A stretch of 7,917 bases of DNA. It comes from a bacterium. Its GTDB lineage: Bacteria > CSSED10-310 > JAJRTK01. The stretch is from the NCBI GenBank assembly GCA_024278345.1, contig JAJRTK010000032.1, forward strand, positions 1 through 7,917, read 5' to 3'. This document shows, in pieces, positions 1 to 7,917 of this stretch. Position 1 is the stretch's first letter. Each line of letters starts with the position of its first letter. The notes beneath the pieces are model-generated. The model was not told the DNA's origin and searched no databases. It saw only the letters and a list, made by a program, of their open reading frames with translations. The position numbers and the translations under genes were made by a program.

Positions 1-141
1 GCCCCAGGGCTTCCAGCCCTGGAACCCGGCGGAGGCTCTGCCTCCGGACCTCCGCTGGGAGCGCCGCTCCCAGACCCACGCCAGGGAGCCAGCTCCCTGG
101 ACCCACATCTTTGTGCGCTGCGTGCTTTTTTCGGGTGGCCG
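1..141 (+). repeat. Tandem-hairpin element, copy 1 (left end cut by window)
   Basis: Four perfect stem-loops follow one another: 4-22 (7-bp stem, loop TTCCA), 30-46 (7-bp stem, loop TCT), 55-73 (8-bp stem CTGGGAGC/GCTCCCAG, loop GCC) and 81-100 (9-bp stem CCAGGGAGC/GCTCCCTGG). A spacer with a weak GCGC/GTGC stem and a T6 tract (126-131) follows, then GGGTGGCCG at 133-141. A second copy at 3412-3552 matches about nine bases in ten with two one-base indels. Hairpin 3 differs between the copies at two base pairs, and both changes keep the pairing. The element abuts a gene remnant that starts at about 142. Chains of GC-rich hairpins of this general look occur in several bacterial groups, but I cannot assign a named family. 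Its role as RNA, recombination site or selfish repeat is unknown. Confidence 0.85.
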
Positions 142-520
142 TTACCATGACCGAGGCCAATACATTTTCAAGCACGCCCTGACGAGGGATGTCGCCGACT
201 GGGGGATCCTCGTGGCGCACCGCAGAAAACTTCATCGTGCCGTAGCGGGAACCCTTGAAAAAATGGCGGAGGGAGACAAGGATAGCTTCCTGGCGATGCG
301 AGGCCACCACTGGGAGCAGGCAGGAGAATCGGAGAAGGCAAAACCCTGTTACTTGGCCGGCGCCCGAAACGCCGTCCTGCGCTATACCCACGACGAAGCG
401 GAACGGCTTTTCCACGCCTATCTGGCACTGGTGGAAAAGATGAAGCTCGCGGTGACTTCGCAAATTCATCTTTTATTTCAATTACTTCCAGCATTACGGA
501 ACGAGTTGACAGGGAGCTAG
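142..520 (+). pseudogene. Remnant of a large predicted-ATPase (cyclase/kinase-associated) protein
   Basis: The frame encodes YIFKHALTRDVA, then R.KLHRAVAGTLEKM, then HHWEQAGE with A..CYLAGA. This matches the pattern F.HAL.Q.VAY..LL...R..LH..VA..LE and HH...AG...A..Y...A found just after the AAA ATPase core in large bacterial regulators that carry a cyclase or kinase domain in front. No ATPase core, cyclase or kinase domain is present. The usual VAY.SLL is degraded to VADWGIL. Recognisable similarity stops near 440, and the last 80 bases are noticeably more AT-rich, ending in a stop at 518-520. The frame stays open leftward through the hairpin element to the window edge, so the element may sit inside the former gene. 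The first possible start (GTG at 113) lies within the element. I read this as a decayed fragment; a functional short protein is unlikely. Family recognition is from memory of motifs. Confidence 0.6.
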
Positions 521-974: not shown

Positions 975-3347
975 CTAAGGCTTTCCGGCCAGGCGCCGAA
1001 GCCGGCGGTCGATCTCCTGGCGACAGGGCTGTGAATTGCACAGATCCCGAGTGCGGCGGTAGGCATCGAGGCAGTCTTCCAGCCGATCCGGCATCTTCTC
1101 CAGCAGCTCGGCAAGGTGGATCAGGGCCTGGAAGTCACGCGGCTGAAGAGCCACGACCTTGCGCAGGGAACGTTCCGCCCCGGCCCCTTCCCCATCCCGG
1201 ATCTGAAGGAGCGCCAGGTTGTAGAGAAGGCTCGGGTTGTGTGGCAATCGGCCTAAGAGCTCCAGGTAAAGACTTTTCGCCTCCGAAAACCGGCCCAGGC
1301 GGTGAAGAGCCAGGGCCAGTTCCAGGCGGTAGGTAAGAACCGACGGATCGAGATCCACCGCCTTGCGGTAAAGCCTGGCCACGGTCTCGTCGTCCCCCTT
1401 CTTTGCCGCGATTCTGGCCAGAGCTGCCAAAAATGGCGGGTGCCGGGGAGTGGCGGCCAGATAGAAACGGTAGATGGACCCGGCTTCATCCAGGCGCCCG
1501 AGCCCCTCGTAAGCACGGGCCAACTCCAGGCGCACGGTGGTACTCTCCAAAAACCCGGGGTCCTTGACCTTTCCAAGCCTTTCGAGCTCCACCGCGGCCT
1601 CCGGATACCGCTCTTCGGCCAAATAGACTCTGGCCAGGCGCAGGCGAGCCGAAGGAGATCCGGGCCTGAGCTCCAGCCCGCGAAAGGCCGCGGCTTCCGC
1701 TTCCTCCAGGCGCTTTTCCCGAAGAAACCCTTCCGTCAACAAGGTCCATCCCTGTTCGTTCCCTGGATCGAGGAGAAGTCCGGCCTCGGCCAGAGAAACT
1801 TCCGTGGCCCAGTCCAGGTTGCGCCGATAGGTGGCCACACCCCAAACCAGACAAACCCCGAGAACGCCCCCAAGAAACAGCCTTCGCCAGGTTTTATGTC
1901 TCCGGGCAACCCAAGCCCGGCTCCACCAGAGCAATGGCAGGGCAACAAAAGAAATCCCCACCATTCCCAGGTAACAACGCCGCTCCGCCGAAACTACGCG
2001 CAAGGGGAAAATGCTGGACGACGGCGCCACGGCCACCGCGAACCAAAAAAGCCCCATAGCCGGCAACGAAGAGCGATACACAACCGCAAGTGCCAGGGCC
2101 AACAGAACTCCCAGAATCGCCAGCGGACCCCAAAAGCCGAGCTCGGACGGGCTGACCACCACCCGATAGGGCCGAAAAAAAGAAAGATCCATAGGCCAAA
2201 CGATGGACTTCAGGTAACCCAAAACAACGCCGGGCTGCGTCAACAGATACTCAAATTGCCCCAATGGCGGCGGCGATGGATTGGCCGTGGCCGGCGCCAC
2301 GCTCCAGCTCAACAGCCTTTGAAACAGGAAAAAGAAGATGGAAAGCGTGATCAGGAAACCATGCGCCCTCAGCCGCCGACGAAGACCCTTGAACCCAGCA
2401 CTCTCATCCCGGGTCCGACGCGGCATCTGAACTATCGCCTCCTCGGGCGGCGGGCATTCGTGGAAGCCTTCCTCAGACCGCCTCGCGACGATCCGGGACG
2501 CGAGCTCCGGGCTCGACGCTCCCTCACCAGCCCAGCTCAAAAAGAAGTCCATGACCAGCAGGTTGGCCGCCAGTGTCATCCCGATCTCCTTGGACCCCGC
2601 GGCCAAAAGCTCAGACACCGCCATTCCCAAGAAAAGAGCGCCGCGATGCCGACGCTTGTCTCCTCGGGTTTCCGGATGGGACGCCCCCAATGCACGCCAC
2701 CGCAAGAAAAGAACCGCCCCCGCCAGATAAAAGAAGGTGGCCAACAAATTCGACCGGGCGTTGATATAGTTGACTGCCTCCGTTTGAATGGGATGGATGG
2801 CGAACAAAAGAGCGCCAAACAAAGGCAACCCCCATTCCGGCGTCCAAGGTTTCCCCGGCGTGCCGGTCACAGCCCCCCATCCCGTGGAAGAAGCGGACGC
2901 CCCAGCCATGCTCTTTCCGGTGGACTGCCCCCTCCCCGCGGCGTCACCATCGGGGCGACCAACGGCCCTCAACAAACCGACGAGCACCAGAAAGAGCAGC
3001 GCGGCATTGGCGGCATGAAGCAAGTTGTTCACGAAATGGTAGGACCAAACTTGTATGCCGCTGACGGCGTAATTGAAGGCAAACGTCGCCAACAACACCG
3101 GCCGGTAGGTGCCCGGCGCACGGCCACCCGAAAAAGTCCTTGGGTCCGTGAAAAACCGACCGAGATTCGCCGGTGATCGAATGGCCGGATTCTGAACAAT
3201 GTGATGGAAATCGTCGAAGTGAAAGGCGCCACCATAGTTGTTGGAATAAACTAAAAGCGCTGCCAGGGGAGCGATCCAAAGCATCCGGCTCCCGCGACGA
3301 AAGAAGCGATGACAACCAGGTTTCCGCCTCAAAAATCCCCACCACAT
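975..3347 (-). CDS. Gene A: TMTC/PMT-like polytopic membrane protein with C-terminal TPRs (790 aa)
   Basis: This is a probable GT-C type glycosyltransferase or related membrane protein. A first membrane segment (about residues 23-36) precedes YSNNYGGAFHFDDFHHIVQNP, whose F44-D45-D46 is the acidic pair expected in the first extracytoplasmic loop of GT-C enzymes. HPIQTEAVNYI (185-195), SKE (252-254), the WPM segment (384-386) typical of DUF1736, and SSSIFPL...AERRCYL (443-460) follow, with roughly eleven membrane segments in all. Residues from about 530 to 770 form degenerate TPRs, and the tail holds a C770/C775 pair. Two long hydrophilic inserts stand out: a Gly/Ser/Thr-rich one (about 129-171) and a charged one (about 274-327). 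The ATG at 3347 was chosen because AAGGAG lies six bases upstream; ATG at 3380 lacks a good site. The frame is open farther up, to 3887, but runs antisense through the hairpin element and into gene B. The core motifs differ from genes B and C, so this is a more distant paralogue. Substrate unknown. Confidence 0.9.
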   Translation of the reverse strand: MWWGFLRRKPGCHRFFRRGSRMLWIAPLAALLVYSNNYGGAFHFDDFHHIVQNPAIRSPANLGRFFTDPRTFSGGRAPGTYRPVLLATFAFNYAVSGIQVWSYHFVNNLLHAANAALLFLVLVGLLRAVGRPDGDAAGRGQSTGKSMAGASASSTGWGAVTGTPGKPWTPEWGLPLFGALLFAIHPIQTEAVNYINARSNLLATFFYLAGAVLFLRWRALGASHPETRGDKRRHRGALFLGMAVSELLAAGSKEIGMTLAANLLVMDFFLSWAGEGASSPELASRIVARRSEEGFHECPPPEEAIVQMPRRTRDESAGFKGLRRRLRAHGFLITLSIFFFLFQRLLSWSVAPATANPSPPPLGQFEYLLTQPGVVLGYLKSIVWPMDLSFFRPYRVVVSPSELGFWGPLAILGVLLALALAVVYRSSLPAMGLFWFAVAVAPSSSIFPLRVVSAERRCYLGMVGISFVALPLLWWSRAWVARRHKTWRRLFLGGVLGVCLVWGVATYRRNLDWATEVSLAEAGLLLDPGNEQGWTLLTEGFLREKRLEEAEAAAFRGLELRPGSPSARLRLARVYLAEERYPEAAVELERLGKVKDPGFLESTTVRLELARAYEGLGRLDEAGSIYRFYLAATPRHPPFLAALARIAAKKGDDETVARLYRKAVDLDPSVLTYRLELALALHRLGRFSEAKSLYLELLGRLPHNPSLLYNLALLQIRDGEGAGAERSLRKVVALQPRDFQALIHLAELLEKMPDRLEDCLDAYRRTRDLCNSQPCRQEIDRRLRRLAGKP

Positions 3348-3353
3348 CGCCCA

Positions 3354-3359
3354 CTCCTT
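3354..3359 (-). promoter_or_regulatory. Ribosome binding site deciding the gene A start
   Basis: AAGGAG on the minus strand, six bases before the ATG at 3347-3345. It favours this start over the ATG at 3380, which has no comparable sequence in front. Confidence 0.75.
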
Positions 3360-3384
3360 GGAAAAATTGGCCTTGGTCATCGTT

Positions 3385-3553
3385 CCGGCCACCCAGTGAA
3401 TTTCGGGCCCAGCCCCAGGGCTTCCAGCCCTGGAACCCGGCGGAGGCTCCGCCTCCAAACCTCCGCCAGGAGCGCTGCTCCTGGACCTCGCCAGGGAGCG
3501 CGCTCCCTGGGCCCACATCTTTGTGCGCTGCGCGCTTTTTTGGGGGTGGCCGG
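3385..3553 (+). repeat. Tandem-hairpin element, copy 2, with terminal inverted repeats
   Basis: The segment starts with CCGGCCACCC (3385-3394) and ends with its exact reverse complement GGGTGGCCGG (3544-3553). Positions 3412-3552 match copy 1 at 1-141. Stems lie at 3415-3433, 3441-3457, 3466-3484 and 3491-3510; the last is the perfect palindrome CCAGGGAGCGCGCTCCCTGG. Stem 3 is CCAGGAGC/GCTCCTGG against CTGGGAGC/GCTCCCAG in copy 1: two positions change on each arm and pairing is kept. A GCGC/GCGC mini-stem and T6 (3536-3541) follow on the plus strand. Orientation is the same as copy 1 and opposite to genes A and B. The left terminal repeat cannot be checked in copy 1 because the window begins there. 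Confidence 0.85.
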
Positions 3554-3554
3554 T

Positions 3555-3585
3555 GCCGACCGCAGGGAGAGTCGGCTTCGCCGAC
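3555..3585. other. Competing GTCGGC/GCCGAC stem-loops downstream of gene B
   Basis: GTCGGC at 3571-3576 can pair with GCCGAC at 3580-3585 (loop TTC) or with GCCGAC at 3555-3560 (10-base loop). The two pairings exclude each other. There is no T tract on the minus strand, so this is not a standard terminator. It may be only a local GC-rich palindrome. Confidence 0.4.
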
Positions 3586-3714
3586 CACCGATGATCACCT
3601 CCGAAAAATTCGGCCACGGGCCGCCGCCGGCACGGCTCGCGCCCCGGACAGGATCCGATACCTGCGCCAGCAACAGACCGGTCGATGCCCGTGCGGCTGG
3701 CGCCATCCCGTATA

Positions 3715-5907
3715 TCACTTGGAAGAGTCGGCCTCCAGCGCCGCGGACCGGATCTTCCGTGCCTCTTGAAGATGCCGGGCAGCTTTCTCCGCCTCCCCCT
3801 TCCGCGTGTAAATGAGATACAAGTTGTAATGGGCCTCAAAATTGTCCGGCTCCAACAGAATCCCCTGCCGGTACTGCTCGATGGCATCCTCCAGGCGCCC
3901 CTGCATGAAGTAGGCGGTCCCCAGGTTGTTCCGCACCTGGAAATTGCCGGGATCCAGCCGCACGGCCGCTTCGAGATGCTCCAGAGCCCGATCTAGCTGG
4001 CCCCGGGGACCATAGAGTGTTCCCAAAGCCAGATGGGCCGACGCGTTGTCGGGCTCCAGCCTCAAGACCGCCTCATATTCCATCGTTGCCCGGTCCACCT
4101 CTCCCCGAGCGGCATGGAGCTCCCCCAGCAGCAACCGGGCTGGCGCGAAATCTCCGTTGAGGCGCACGGATTCCTTCAAGTCCTCCAACGCCTCGCCCAC
4201 GGCGCCTAGCTCGCGCCGGCAAACGGCCAAATTATAAAGAGCCCCCGCATGCGCCGGCCCCGCTTCCACGGCCAGGCGATACTGACCGCAAGCCTCCTTC
4301 CAGAACCCCTTCTTCTGAAGACTGTTCCCCAAGGTGATCCGAGCCTCTACCGAGTCGGGCGCCCGACGAAGCGACCACCCTAGCAACGCCTCGGCCTCCG
4401 TCGTCATCCCTTTTTCGCCAAAAGCCCTGGCCAACCCGATCCGCGCCGACTCATGACCGGGATCCAAAGACAAAGCCACCTTGAACTCTCGGATCGCCTC
4501 GTCCAATCGGCCCTGGTCCAGGTAGGCGTTGGCCAGATTATTGTGGGGCCTGGGCTTCCCGGGCGACTTCCTGGCGGCGTCGGCCCAGAGCGTCACGGGA
4601 GTCCGCCAGACCGCGTTCCGCCCATAAGCCACCGCACCAAGAACAAGCACCGCCAGGCCAAGGAATCCCACCACCAGGCGAAACCGAAACCTGTTGCGCT
4701 CCCTACCGCCACCTTCCGCCCAGGCGAACAGTCCAACGCAGAAAGCAACAAAAAACCCCACGGATGGCAGGTAGACCCGATGCTCGAACATGACGTTGGG
4801 GATGGGGATGATGCTCGATTCGACGGAAATCGTCAAAAAAAACCAGAGAATCCCAAACCCGACCACCCGAAGCTCTGGCCTCTCCTTCCCGGCTCTCTTC
4901 AGAGAAACCACCCCCGCAGTCGCCAACGCCACCAAAAGCGCTCCACACAACAAGACATCCACTACAAATGGTGAAGCACGCAACGCCACATCGTGATCGA
5001 TATTCTGCCCCATGGGAACGATGAGCATGGCCAGATATTTCACCAGCACCACAAGCTGCGTCCAGAAGTAGGTGCTTCTGGAATGAATCCCTTCATCCAA
5101 CAAAACGGTGGCCACGCCCTTCCCCTTCATGGAAAGAGGAATGATTGCGACCACCATAAAAAAGGGAAGCAACCCAGCCAAAAGATTCCGCTTTGGAGTG
5201 CGAAAAAAAGAGAGCTCGAAAAGCAAGAGCGCCATGGGCAACGTGAAGGCGTTCTCCTTGGTCTTCACCGCCGCCAGGGAAAAGAGAAGCGCCAAGGCAT
5301 ACCACCCCCACTTCCTCCTGCCCCGCCCAAGGCGAAAAGCCCCGTAGCAAAGGATCGCCGCCAAATAGAAGGCCGCCACCAGCGAAGCATACCGCTGAAC
5401 AATGTAGGTCACGGCCTGCGTTTGGAGCGGATGAACGGCAAACAGAAGCGCCGCGAAAAACGCCATATCCCGCGTACGCTGACGATTTCCCACACCGGCT
5501 AGCAGAGGCGTCCGGAAAAGGAGCAAGACCAAACCGTACACCATCGCCGCGTTCCAGCCATGGATCGCCACGTTCACCAAGTGGTAGCCAAAAACCTCCA
5601 GCCCATGAACCTCATAGTCAAGAGCAAACGTCAGGGCACCCACATACCGGTTTTTCAGAATCCCGAAAATCCAAGGGGAAAGATCCCGCCTCGCCAAACC
5701 GAAGTCCCCAAAATAGCCCAGATCCTTGATGGCCGGATTCTCGACGATATTGCCGATATCATCGAACTGGAAAGCCGCCTGAAAACTGTTGGAATAAACT
5801 CCCGCCACAAAAAGCCAAATCAAGAGAACCCGCGGACGACTTCCACCCAAAAGCCTCCACGGCATGCCCCGAAGAGCCCCGCCAACCGAATCGCCAAGCC
5901 CGCTCAA
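3715..5907 (-). CDS. Gene B: TMTC/PMT-like membrane protein with eight C-terminal TPRs (730 aa)
   Basis: This is the cleanest member of the trio. A membrane segment at about 27-40 leads to YSNSFQAAFQFDDIGNIVENP with the acidic pair D49-D50, followed by HPLQTQAVTYIVQR (159-172), TKEN (216-219), the VPMGQNIDHD segment (297-306, DUF1736-like), ESSIIP (363-368) and MFEHRVYLPSVG (373-384). YGRN...W.TPVTLW (428-441) marks the end of the membrane part, where TMTC-type proteins enter their TPR domain. Eight TPRs of 34 residues run almost without breaks from about 454 to 723 (units begin near 454, 486, 520, 554, 588, 622, 656 and 690). By family logic the core would use a lipid-linked sugar at the outer face of the inner membrane and the TPRs would lie outside the cytoplasm; donor and acceptor cannot be inferred. 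The start is TTG at 5907, with AGGAGG nine bases upstream; ATG at 5865 is the in-frame alternative with a weaker site. Confidence 0.9.
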   Translation of the reverse strand: MSGLGDSVGGALRGMPWRLLGGSRPRVLLIWLFVAGVYSNSFQAAFQFDDIGNIVENPAIKDLGYFGDFGLARRDLSPWIFGILKNRYVGALTFALDYEVHGLEVFGYHLVNVAIHGWNAAMVYGLVLLLFRTPLLAGVGNRQRTRDMAFFAALLFAVHPLQTQAVTYIVQRYASLVAAFYLAAILCYGAFRLGRGRRKWGWYALALLFSLAAVKTKENAFTLPMALLLFELSFFRTPKRNLLAGLLPFFMVVAIIPLSMKGKGVATVLLDEGIHSRSTYFWTQLVVLVKYLAMLIVPMGQNIDHDVALRASPFVVDVLLCGALLVALATAGVVSLKRAGKERPELRVVGFGILWFFLTISVESSIIPIPNVMFEHRVYLPSVGFFVAFCVGLFAWAEGGGRERNRFRFRLVVGFLGLAVLVLGAVAYGRNAVWRTPVTLWADAARKSPGKPRPHNNLANAYLDQGRLDEAIREFKVALSLDPGHESARIGLARAFGEKGMTTEAEALLGWSLRRAPDSVEARITLGNSLQKKGFWKEACGQYRLAVEAGPAHAGALYNLAVCRRELGAVGEALEDLKESVRLNGDFAPARLLLGELHAARGEVDRATMEYEAVLRLEPDNASAHLALGTLYGPRGQLDRALEHLEAAVRLDPGNFQVRNNLGTAYFMQGRLEDAIEQYRQGILLEPDNFEAHYNLYLIYTRKGEAEKAARHLQEARKIRSAALEADSSK

Positions 5908-5970: not shown

Positions 5971-6105
5971 ATTTTCCTGGCCGGGAAACGCTCTGAGAGC
6001 ATCATTTCCTCACGAACCCCTTTTCCTTCTTATGGTTGGGTTCCGCTCCCGGCGGCGGCAGTCCGTCCGCCGCCACTCGCCATTCTCACCGCCCATGCCA
6101 TCCAT
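5971..6105 (+). repeat. Dispersed palindromic repeat, intergenic copy
   Basis: The stretch opens with TTTCC-N6-GGAAA (5973-5988). About 30 bases later it has TTTTCCTTCTTATGG followed by TTGGGTTCCGCTCCCG (6036-6051), and continues with patchy similarity to about 6100. The same order occurs on the minus strand at 7848-7732: GTTTCC-N6-GGAAAC, a T-rich TTTTTCCTTCC, the 17-base word GTTGGGTTCCGCTCCCG (7795-7779), then a similar TCCGT...CGCC...TCGCC...TGCC tail. The two copies are therefore inverted relative to each other, about 1.7 kb apart. Confidence 0.6.
6051..6074. other. GC-rich stem-loop within the C-B gap
   Basis: GGCGGCGG (6051-6058) pairs with CCGCCGCC (6067-6074) around an 8-base loop. 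It lies about 165 bases past the gene C stop and has no T tract on either strand, so it is a poor candidate for an intrinsic terminator. It is part of the dispersed repeat's tail, and the gene C copy of the repeat does not keep this stem. Confidence 0.5.
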
Positions 6106-6239: not shown

Positions 6240-7917
6240 CTAGCCACCCGGAGCGCCGCCTTCCCCGGCGGCAAGCCCACTCCAACATTTCCCGCCGGGA
6301 CTTTCATAGTTCTCCCGCAAGTGCTCCCGAACATCCCGGGGCCCGTCCCCTTCCGTCTGAAGACGAAGATAGACCATCCACTGGGCTCGGGCGGCGCGGC
6401 AATCCCCCGTCTGTTCCAAAGTCCAGGCCAGGTTCCAGCGGTAAACCGGTCTCCAAGGAGCCAGTTCCCGAGCCCGGGAAAAAAGCTCCAAGGCCCCGGC
6501 CTTCTCCCCCTTCTTCAGGAGAAGCTCTCCCAGGTGATTGTAGAGCGACGGCCGCTCCGGAGCCGCAGCCATGGCCCAACGAAGCATTCTCTCCGCCCGG
6601 TCCAGATCCCCTTCGTCCATCAAGGTCACCGCCCGAAACTCCAGGGCCACAGGCTCCCAAGGGTCTAGGGCCAAGGCCCGGTCCAGCGCGCCGAGCGCTT
6701 CCTCCCGCCTACCTGCCACAAGGCGGTAATAGCCGATGTTGGCCCAAACTCGGGCCGAATCGGGCGCCTCTTTCAAGGCATGCTCCAAGAGGGTCAAGGG
6801 GGATTTCCAGACGGGAAGGAGCTTTAGCGTCACCGTCACCAAAGCCGCCCAGCTTGCCAAAAATAGGACTAATGCGACGCCCCTCCATCTCGCCAAACAC
6901 CGCCAGAGCCCTAGAAACCCTAAAGCCGCCAACCCGGCAAGACCCACGGAAGGGAAGTACATTCGATGCTCGAACACCATTTCCAACGGTGCCACGGAGC
7001 TCTCCACCGACAATCCAATGGGAAGCCAAAGCAAAAAGAAACCGGCAATCCGCCAGCGACGCCTGAGCCCCAGGATAAGCCCCCAAAAACACCACCCCAT
7101 CAATCCCATGAGAGCAAAAAGGGTCGAGGACGGCTGGAGCAGGGACCGGGAAATGGAAAAATCGTGCTCCAAAGCAAAGCGCTCAGGCATGGGCCAGAGA
7201 ATCTGAGACAGATAGAACGTCAGAACCCTTGGCTGGGTCAAAAGACGCTCCGCTAGCGTAAACTTCCTTGCCGAATAGCCTGGATAAACCAGTTGAGACA
7301 GCGGGCCGACGCCGCTCCAAAGGTCAAGGAGCACCAATGCAGCCAATAGTCCGCACAAAAGAAAAACTACCCGATCCAGACGATGCTCGAACCATCTCCC
7401 GACCCCATGACGGACGACCCAGTATTCCGCCAGAACCAACAATAAAGGAAGGATCCACGTGTTTTCCTTGCAGATGGCCGCCAGGACCAAGGTCACGCCG
7501 CTCAAGAAAAGCCAGCCCAGCCCCCCTTTGGAACAGGTGCGGCCCTTCAAGTAGGACAGCAGGCAAAAAAGCCCAAAGAAAGCGCCCAACGAGGCCATCC
7601 GCTGGACCACATAGGTGACGCCTTGCACCTGGATGGGGTGGACGGCCCAGAGGGCCGCTCCCGCAAAGGATGCCCAATAAACCGCATCGTTATCTTGACT
7701 GGAGCACGGGAGTAAACCGGAACCAGGAACCGGCACGGGGGCAGGGGAGGGCGAACGGCGCGCAACGGATGTGAGCGACGGGAGCGGAACCCAACAAGAA
7801 AGGAAGGAAAAAGCAGGCTTCCTCGATTCAGTTTCCGGGGCGGGAAACGACCTGGCAGCATGAAAAGCGGTCTTCCTCTCTTCAGTTTCCGGGGCGGGAA
7901 ACGGTCTAGCGGCAGGA
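6240..7917 (-). CDS. Gene C: TMTC/PMT-like membrane protein with TPRs, 5' end outside window
   Basis: Residue numbers count from the GTG at 7736. HPIQVQGVTYVVQR (33-46), CKEN (89-92), ILWPMPERFALEHD (179-192, DUF1736-like), VESSVAP (244-250) and VFEHRMYFPSVG (254-265) match gene B closely and in the same order. Three to four TPR-like units follow (about 327-460), fewer than in gene B, then a Gly-rich tail. The first membrane helix and the FDD acidic loop seen in genes A and B are absent after the GTG, while the frame upstream has no stop for 60 codons to the window edge. I therefore treat the gene as 5'-partial and the GTG as internal. The upstream frame encodes two 18-residue repeats and a Pro/Ser-rich linker at the place where genes A and B have a loop before the HPxQ helix. 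Expected role as for gene B; the TAG stop is at 6240-6242. Confidence 0.85.
   Translation of the reverse strand, partial: PAARPFPAPETEERKTAFHAARSFPAPETESRKPAFSFLSCWVPLPSLTSVARRSPSPAPVPVPGSGLLPCSSQDNDAVYWASFAGAALWAVHPIQVQGVTYVVQRMASLGAFFGLFCLLSYLKGRTCSKGGLGWLFLSGVTLVLAAICKENTWILPLLLVLAEYWVVRHGVGRWFEHRLDRVVFLLCGLLAALVLLDLWSGVGPLSQLVYPGYSARKFTLAERLLTQPRVLTFYLSQILWPMPERFALEHDFSISRSLLQPSSTLFALMGLMGWCFWGLILGLRRRWRIAGFFLLWLPIGLSVESSVAPLEMVFEHRMYFPSVGLAGLAALGFLGLWRCLARWRGVALVLFLASWAALVTVTLKLLPVWKSPLTLLEHALKEAPDSARVWANIGYYRLVAGRREEALGALDRALALDPWEPVALEFRAVTLMDEGDLDRAERMLRWAMAAAPERPSLYNHLGELLLKKGEKAGALELFSRARELAPWRPVYRWNLAWTLEQTGDCRAARAQWMVYLRLQTEGDGPRDVREHLRENYESPGGKCWSGLAAGEGGAPGG
7806..7913 (-). repeat. 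Two 54-bp tandem units encoding 18-residue repeats in gene C
   Basis: Unit 1 (7913-7860, minus) encodes AARPFPAPETEERKTAFH and unit 2 (7859-7806) encodes AARSFPAPETESRKPAFS. The period of 54 is a multiple of three, and the gene C frame is kept through both. Each unit contains the palindrome GTTTCC-GGGGCG-GGAAAC (plus strand 7831-7848 and 7885-7902). More units may lie beyond the window edge. The DNA is related to the intergenic repeat at 5971-6105, so it may be a mobile or expanding palindromic element tolerated inside the protein. Confidence 0.75.

Follow-up and report, generated by a model that had tools for sequence, protein, structure and literature searches.

We found that the two four-hairpin arrays in the window (the whole stretch of 7,917 nucleotides analysed here) are the interiors of MITE-like elements, about 200-235 bp long, with terminal inverted repeats (TIRs) and 8-bp target-site duplications. 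The arrays represent different subfamilies of an abundant MITE, and the change that separates them in stem 3 is real and conserves structure. The reading that we consider probable is that the four hairpins form the interior of a high-copy MITE, that folding is preserved in the lineages that give rise to new copies, and that the arrays serve as landing sites for introns.

Two copies of the array differ by compensated changes in stem 3

All hairpins are given on the plus strand. In copy 1, hairpin 3 (positions 55-73) has the type A stem CTGGGAGC/GCTCCCAG, assigned from the sequence and from a survey of intermediates (below). In copy 2, hairpin 3 (3466-3484) has the type B stem CCAGGAGC/GCTCCTGG, assigned from the sequence and from an alignment of 43 copies. 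Two pairs are altered on both arms. The initial annotation had reported these letters and the matched two-arm changes, and re-reading the sequence confirmed them. It was also correct that hairpin 1 is the same in both copies, that hairpin 4 varies only at the two bases of its loop, and that a T6 tract lies 3' of each array (126-131 and 3536-3541).

In copy 2, hairpin 1 (3415-3433) has an 8-pair stem and hairpin 2 (3442-3456) a 6-pair stem; these are helices 1 and 2 of the alignment. Hairpin 4 of copy 2 (3491-3510) is the counterpart of the group II intron target in other copies; in copy 1 it lies at 81-100 (CCAGGGAGCCAGCTCCCTGG). A weak fifth hairpin followed by the T6 tract (3523-3541) is terminator-like. 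The right end of copy 2 has an extra 3' hairpin (GTCGGCTTCGCCGAC, 3571-3585), and similar extensions occur in other copies.

Copies 1 and 2 differ at 15 aligned positions, 12 of which are substitutions in the hairpin core. Only four of these 12 fall in stems, and those four make up the two compensated pairs. When 12 substitutions were placed at random, two or more compensated pairs arose in 1.3% of trials. For each strand, folding was better than for dinucleotide shuffles (z of -3.0 to -4.2). In the minimum-energy fold of copy 2, parts of hairpin 3 pair with parts of hairpin 4 because the arms of the two hairpins are alike. An Rfam scan of the window gave no match.

The arrays lie inside MITE-like elements

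Copy 2 is a complete type B element of 234 bp (3369-3602, plus strand) with the ends GGCCTTGGTCATCGTT...ACCGATGATCACCTCC, a degenerate TIR. Its 5' TIR (3369-3394, plus strand; GGCCTTGGTCATCGTTCCGGCCACCC) is common to many copies. The element is flanked by identical target-site duplications, GAAAAATT, at 3361-3368 and 3603-3610. Copy 1 (1-158, plus strand) is a type A element whose 5' end is truncated by the start of the contig; its 3' TIR (133-158) ends in ...GGGTGGCCGTTACCATGACCGAGGCC. TIRs of the element begin GGCCTYGGTCATSGT..., those of type A are GGCCTCGGTCATGGTACCGGCCAC ... GGGTGGCCGGTACCATGACCGAGGCC, and types B and C carry variants. In an alignment of 47 copies with their flanks, similarity ran past the hairpins to the TIRs, and sequences beyond the TIRs were unrelated. 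Exact 8-bp duplications (8/8) were found at 12 family 1 elements of 194-266 bp, including copy 2.

The element is a small non-autonomous transposon present at well over a hundred places in the genome. We searched the source genome, a draft of 6.06 Mb in 550 contigs that is 88% complete. The TIR core (up to one mismatch) was found at 334 ends, compared to one in a reversed-pattern control, and hairpin 4 (up to two mismatches) in 255 copies, compared to none in the control. A similarity search of this genome returned scores for 40 of 450 candidate matches. Many contigs end within the element, as expected because assembly breaks at a repeat.

There is also a second family of elements. Its TIR is GGGTATCCACGYAAGGCGGGACA, its duplications are likewise 8 bp, and its array and tail are related to those of the first. 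TIRs bound a short non-coding element, and in both families the duplications have a constant length of 8 bp, as in MITEs. The initial proposal that the array does not derive from leftover coding sequence is supported. The perfect 8-bp duplications speak against the accompanying suggestion that it spreads as a copied folded strand. We also considered a derivative of an IS200/IS605-type single-strand transposon; such elements make no target duplication, and the 8-bp duplications contradict this origin.

Movement would instead depend on a transposase that acts in trans on the TIRs, moves double-stranded DNA and leaves the 8-bp duplications. In the 1.13 Mb of sequence that was read, we found no autonomous element with matching TIRs; no TIR pairs 0.6-4 kb apart had a convincing duplication, and searches of the whole draft genome for DDE_1, ISL3, IS1595 and IS256 (Pfam) gave no matching carrier. 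One ISL3 match was rejected as the autonomous partner since its ends differ and a copy of the element interrupts the gene. Separately, we noted that this ISL3-type transposase gene (L163; C5:9-767) contains a family 1 insert through which the reading frame stays open.

The window carries three tandem genes on the minus strand (975-3380, 3715-5907 and 6240-7736). Their C-terminal parts are TPR, and their N-terminal parts are hydrophobic by eye. Copy 2 sits between the first two of these genes. An ATG within its TIR (ATGACCAAGGCC) shares the frame of 975-3380, and the element may have supplied the start of that reading frame. A pair of 54-bp direct repeats at 7809-7916 contains TTTCCGGGGCGGGAAACG and is related to 5973-6002.

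Stem changes are compensated between subfamilies but mostly not within single copies

We found that pairing in the stems is largely conserved among copies. When the 43 distinct copies were aligned by sequence alone, bases were paired in 98.0% of stem cells. Two-sided changes occurred at four pairs, three in stem 3 and one in stem 1. The number of two-sided cells (19) was above that in all 500 shuffles (mean 3.1). This count is inflated by relatedness because subfamilies are set apart by these very changes: type B by stem 3 pairs 2 and 3, and type C by stem 1; one further pair is changed in L041. The two-sided cells thus mostly reflect inheritance within subfamilies, and only a handful of events.

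Changes private to single copies gave a different result. Among type A copies, 14 private stem changes broke a pair, three made a wobble and none was compensated. The rate of private changes in type A was 0.9% in stems compared to 1.9% in spacers (p 0.02), with 8 of the 17 stem changes from one decayed copy (L128). Pairing is therefore conserved along active lineages and not in each copy; individual insertions decay without repair of pairing. The initial annotation had proposed selection on a folded strand, and had held that mostly uncompensated stem substitutions across many copies would refute it. Such substitutions are what single copies show, in the private changes of type A, and the changes at the level of subfamilies are compensated. 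The proposal stands in part: two-arm changes keep the stems in stem 3, in stem 1 and also in the first hairpin of the second family; private changes are mostly uncompensated.

A survey with a hairpin 3 pattern (88 matches, one apparently spurious) indicated how the stem 3 change could have come about. The two key pairs were found as T-A/G-C and C-G/A-T, and also as the intermediates T.G/G-C, T.G/G.T, C-G/G.T and C-G/A.C. Since wobble and one-arm intermediates exist, single-arm steps occur, and the two-arm change need not have been one event. Recombination with a breakpoint in the loop may account for some of these intermediates.

The intermediates bear on a second way to obtain matched changes. 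Arms could be corrected against each other by template switching at quasi-palindromes during replication, which would make both changes in one event with no selection. The perfect GC-rich palindromes with tiny loops would suit such a process, as would the matched changes in L041 and subfamily C, for which no intermediate was seen. However, stem 3 does have one-arm intermediates, and the private changes of young copies stay uncorrected. We consider arm-to-arm correction quite improbable. In the reading that we favour, the lineages that make new copies keep pairing: the stem changes that define subfamilies are compensated, at least in stem 3 by way of one-arm intermediates.

Two further comparisons did not discriminate. 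We looked for a polarity of G-U over A-C as a sign of one functional strand and found none apparent; A-C mismatches and G-U pairs have about the same frequency, which favours neither strand. An alternative long stem (28-34/48-54) that would replace hairpin 2 has no two-sided changes, and neither does hairpin 2, so covariation does not choose between them.

Hairpins are exchanged between elements

We found that hairpin types reassort between copies, so modules are exchanged. All four combinations of hairpin 1 and hairpin 3 types occur (L014, L038 and the window copies), which requires exchange or repeated change. In six copies (L111, L132, L136, L139, L142 and L102), hairpin 3 or 4 is swapped for a longer hairpin in the same place, and L121 has no hairpin 4. 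In the window, a relic resembling a long hairpin-4 module (AGGACCCGTTGCAATGAAAAGCAACGAGTTCCCCACCCAC) lies at 509-571 on the plus strand; the same module is in L140 and L133 and, nearly, in L104.

These findings raise the question of whether type B hairpin 3 arrived in copy 2 as a unit by recombination, rather than by compensation in this lineage. The four combinations and the replacement of whole hairpins (all of the copies named above except L102) favour such an arrival, and we regard it as a serious possibility, at a little under even chances. Because wobble and one-arm states are present, a stepwise origin somewhere is nonetheless likely; exchange explains the spread of the type B stem but not its origin. 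Exchange of whole hairpins between elements would also be a part of the mechanism that we favour.

The array is oriented without regard to neighbouring genes

The interior of the element, modular GC-rich hairpins joined by short linkers and closed by a weak final hairpin with a T tract, might act as a mobile intrinsic terminator of host genes. In that case, transcripts of the plus strand would stop at the final hairpin with its T tract, and the stems would be kept by selection for termination. The weak hairpin and T6 in both window copies, and the T-rich tails in both families, are consistent with this, as is the targeting of the array by introns (below), since class C introns target terminators. 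There is also precedent, in that MITEs and SPRITEs have been suggested to act as terminators (PMC10969869).

We found no bias in the orientation of the element. With genes called by codon usage, 46 neighbour sides of family 1 were co-oriented and 40 anti (p 0.59); for family 2 the numbers were 22 and 30, and arrays in other phyla had no consistent orientation bias relative to genes. Copy 2 in the window is antisense to both of its neighbours. A GC-rich stem does directly precede the T tract, as in a terminator, but this last stem is weak, with no more than about 5 pairs, several copies have lost or altered the T tract, and the elements show no preference for lying downstream of genes in the direction of those genes. 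The lack of orientation bias leaves a role as a host-gene terminator unsupported, and we think such a role somewhat unlikely. A possible function is a putative block on transcription through the element itself. The array would be kept because it folds, either as single-stranded DNA or in a transcript of the plus strand; the most plausible benefit is that it blocks read-through transcription of the element.

Group II introns insert next to hairpins of the array

Introns lie at a defined position in the array. In L114 and L160, an intron starts directly after CTCCCTGGAC of hairpin 4. The 3' ends of introns join CCACATCTTTGTGCGC at many places, with about 22 strong matches to a query spanning the junction of intron end and array tail. 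Flanks and element types differ between these junctions (type A, type B and second-family tails), indicating separate intron insertions. In copy 2, the corresponding insertion point is between 3512 and 3513, and the intron is absent. In L022 (minus-strand offset 14240), the hairpin that precedes an intron-like start is one of the second family and not hairpin 4.

Group II domain V (RF00029) was above the gathering cut-off at two of the junctions, in L111 and L155. The group II reverse transcriptase TIGR04416 was above cut-off in C336, and below cut-off in C38, within an intron that adjoins an array. Class C introns are known to use the stem-loops of terminators or attC as insertion sites (PMC4424553, PMC8919778), and the introns here share with them insertion right after a stem-loop, a group II domain V and a reverse transcriptase. 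Judged by target and domain V, they are probably class C-like. Based on the position of the insertions, we suggest that the hairpins are landing sites for this intron, which would recognise the hairpin fold. The known targets of class C introns are gene terminators or attC; in contrast, the target here is a hairpin of a high-copy transposon. A literature search for MITEs as class C intron targets gave no match, an absence that is not proof of novelty.

Hairpin 4 has exact matches in distant phyla

The whole element was absent from 59 other genomes searched, seven of them from the same phylum. Hairpin 4 with its linkers was absent from these seven, and the pattern CTCCCTGGNCCCACATC... had no match in GTDB contigs. 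The 23 fixed bases of hairpin 4 (CGCCAGGGAGCNNGCTCCCTGGACC) have exact matches in Synergistaceae, a rumen Ruminococcus MAG, Magnetococcales, Acetobacteraceae and Rubritepida. These matches usually adjoin another hairpin with similar linkers; the records are all MAGs, in which contamination is possible, and their neighbouring sequences differ from one another. The sharing of hairpin 4 across phyla may reflect either transfer or convergence.

In the rumen Ruminococcus MAG, loci L171-L217 have three-hairpin arrays followed by ACCCACGCGCTTACGCGC, a layout like that of array and tail here; hairpins at these loci are also swapped for longer modules. The hairpin arrays of distant phyla might be a portable folded single-strand module that unrelated MITE families acquire, in which hairpins are swapped and to which group II introns home wherever the module lands; we consider this unlikely.

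Discussion

Each component of these elements is of a known kind; what is unusual is the common modular hairpin array with repeated intron landing. Like prokaryotic MITEs such as QMITE2 of Coxiella burnetii, for which target duplications are 7-9 bp (PMC10969869), the element is short, non-coding and high copy, with TIRs of about 25 bp, stable folding and, here, 8-bp duplications. It differs from them in being GC-rich and not AT-rich, and in having a modular hairpin array common to two TIR families. SPRITE, BOX and RUP of Streptococcus pneumoniae (PMC10969869) are likewise repeats that have terminator-like parts and insert into each other, but the host and arrangement are different, and the terminator-like array here is within TIR-bounded elements. 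REP/BIME palindromes are also extragenic, high copy and mosaic; most REPs are 20-40 bp and belong to two superfamilies tagged GTAG or CGTC (PMC3733652). In contrast, the elements here are bounded by TIRs with 8-bp duplications.

The copies are a natural experiment on what keeps the hairpins of mobile elements, whether termination, single-strand recognition or mutation bias. Our findings link MITEs to the spread of group II introns via a common folded target, and they point to a hairpin module, without an Rfam match in the window, that spans bacterial phyla.
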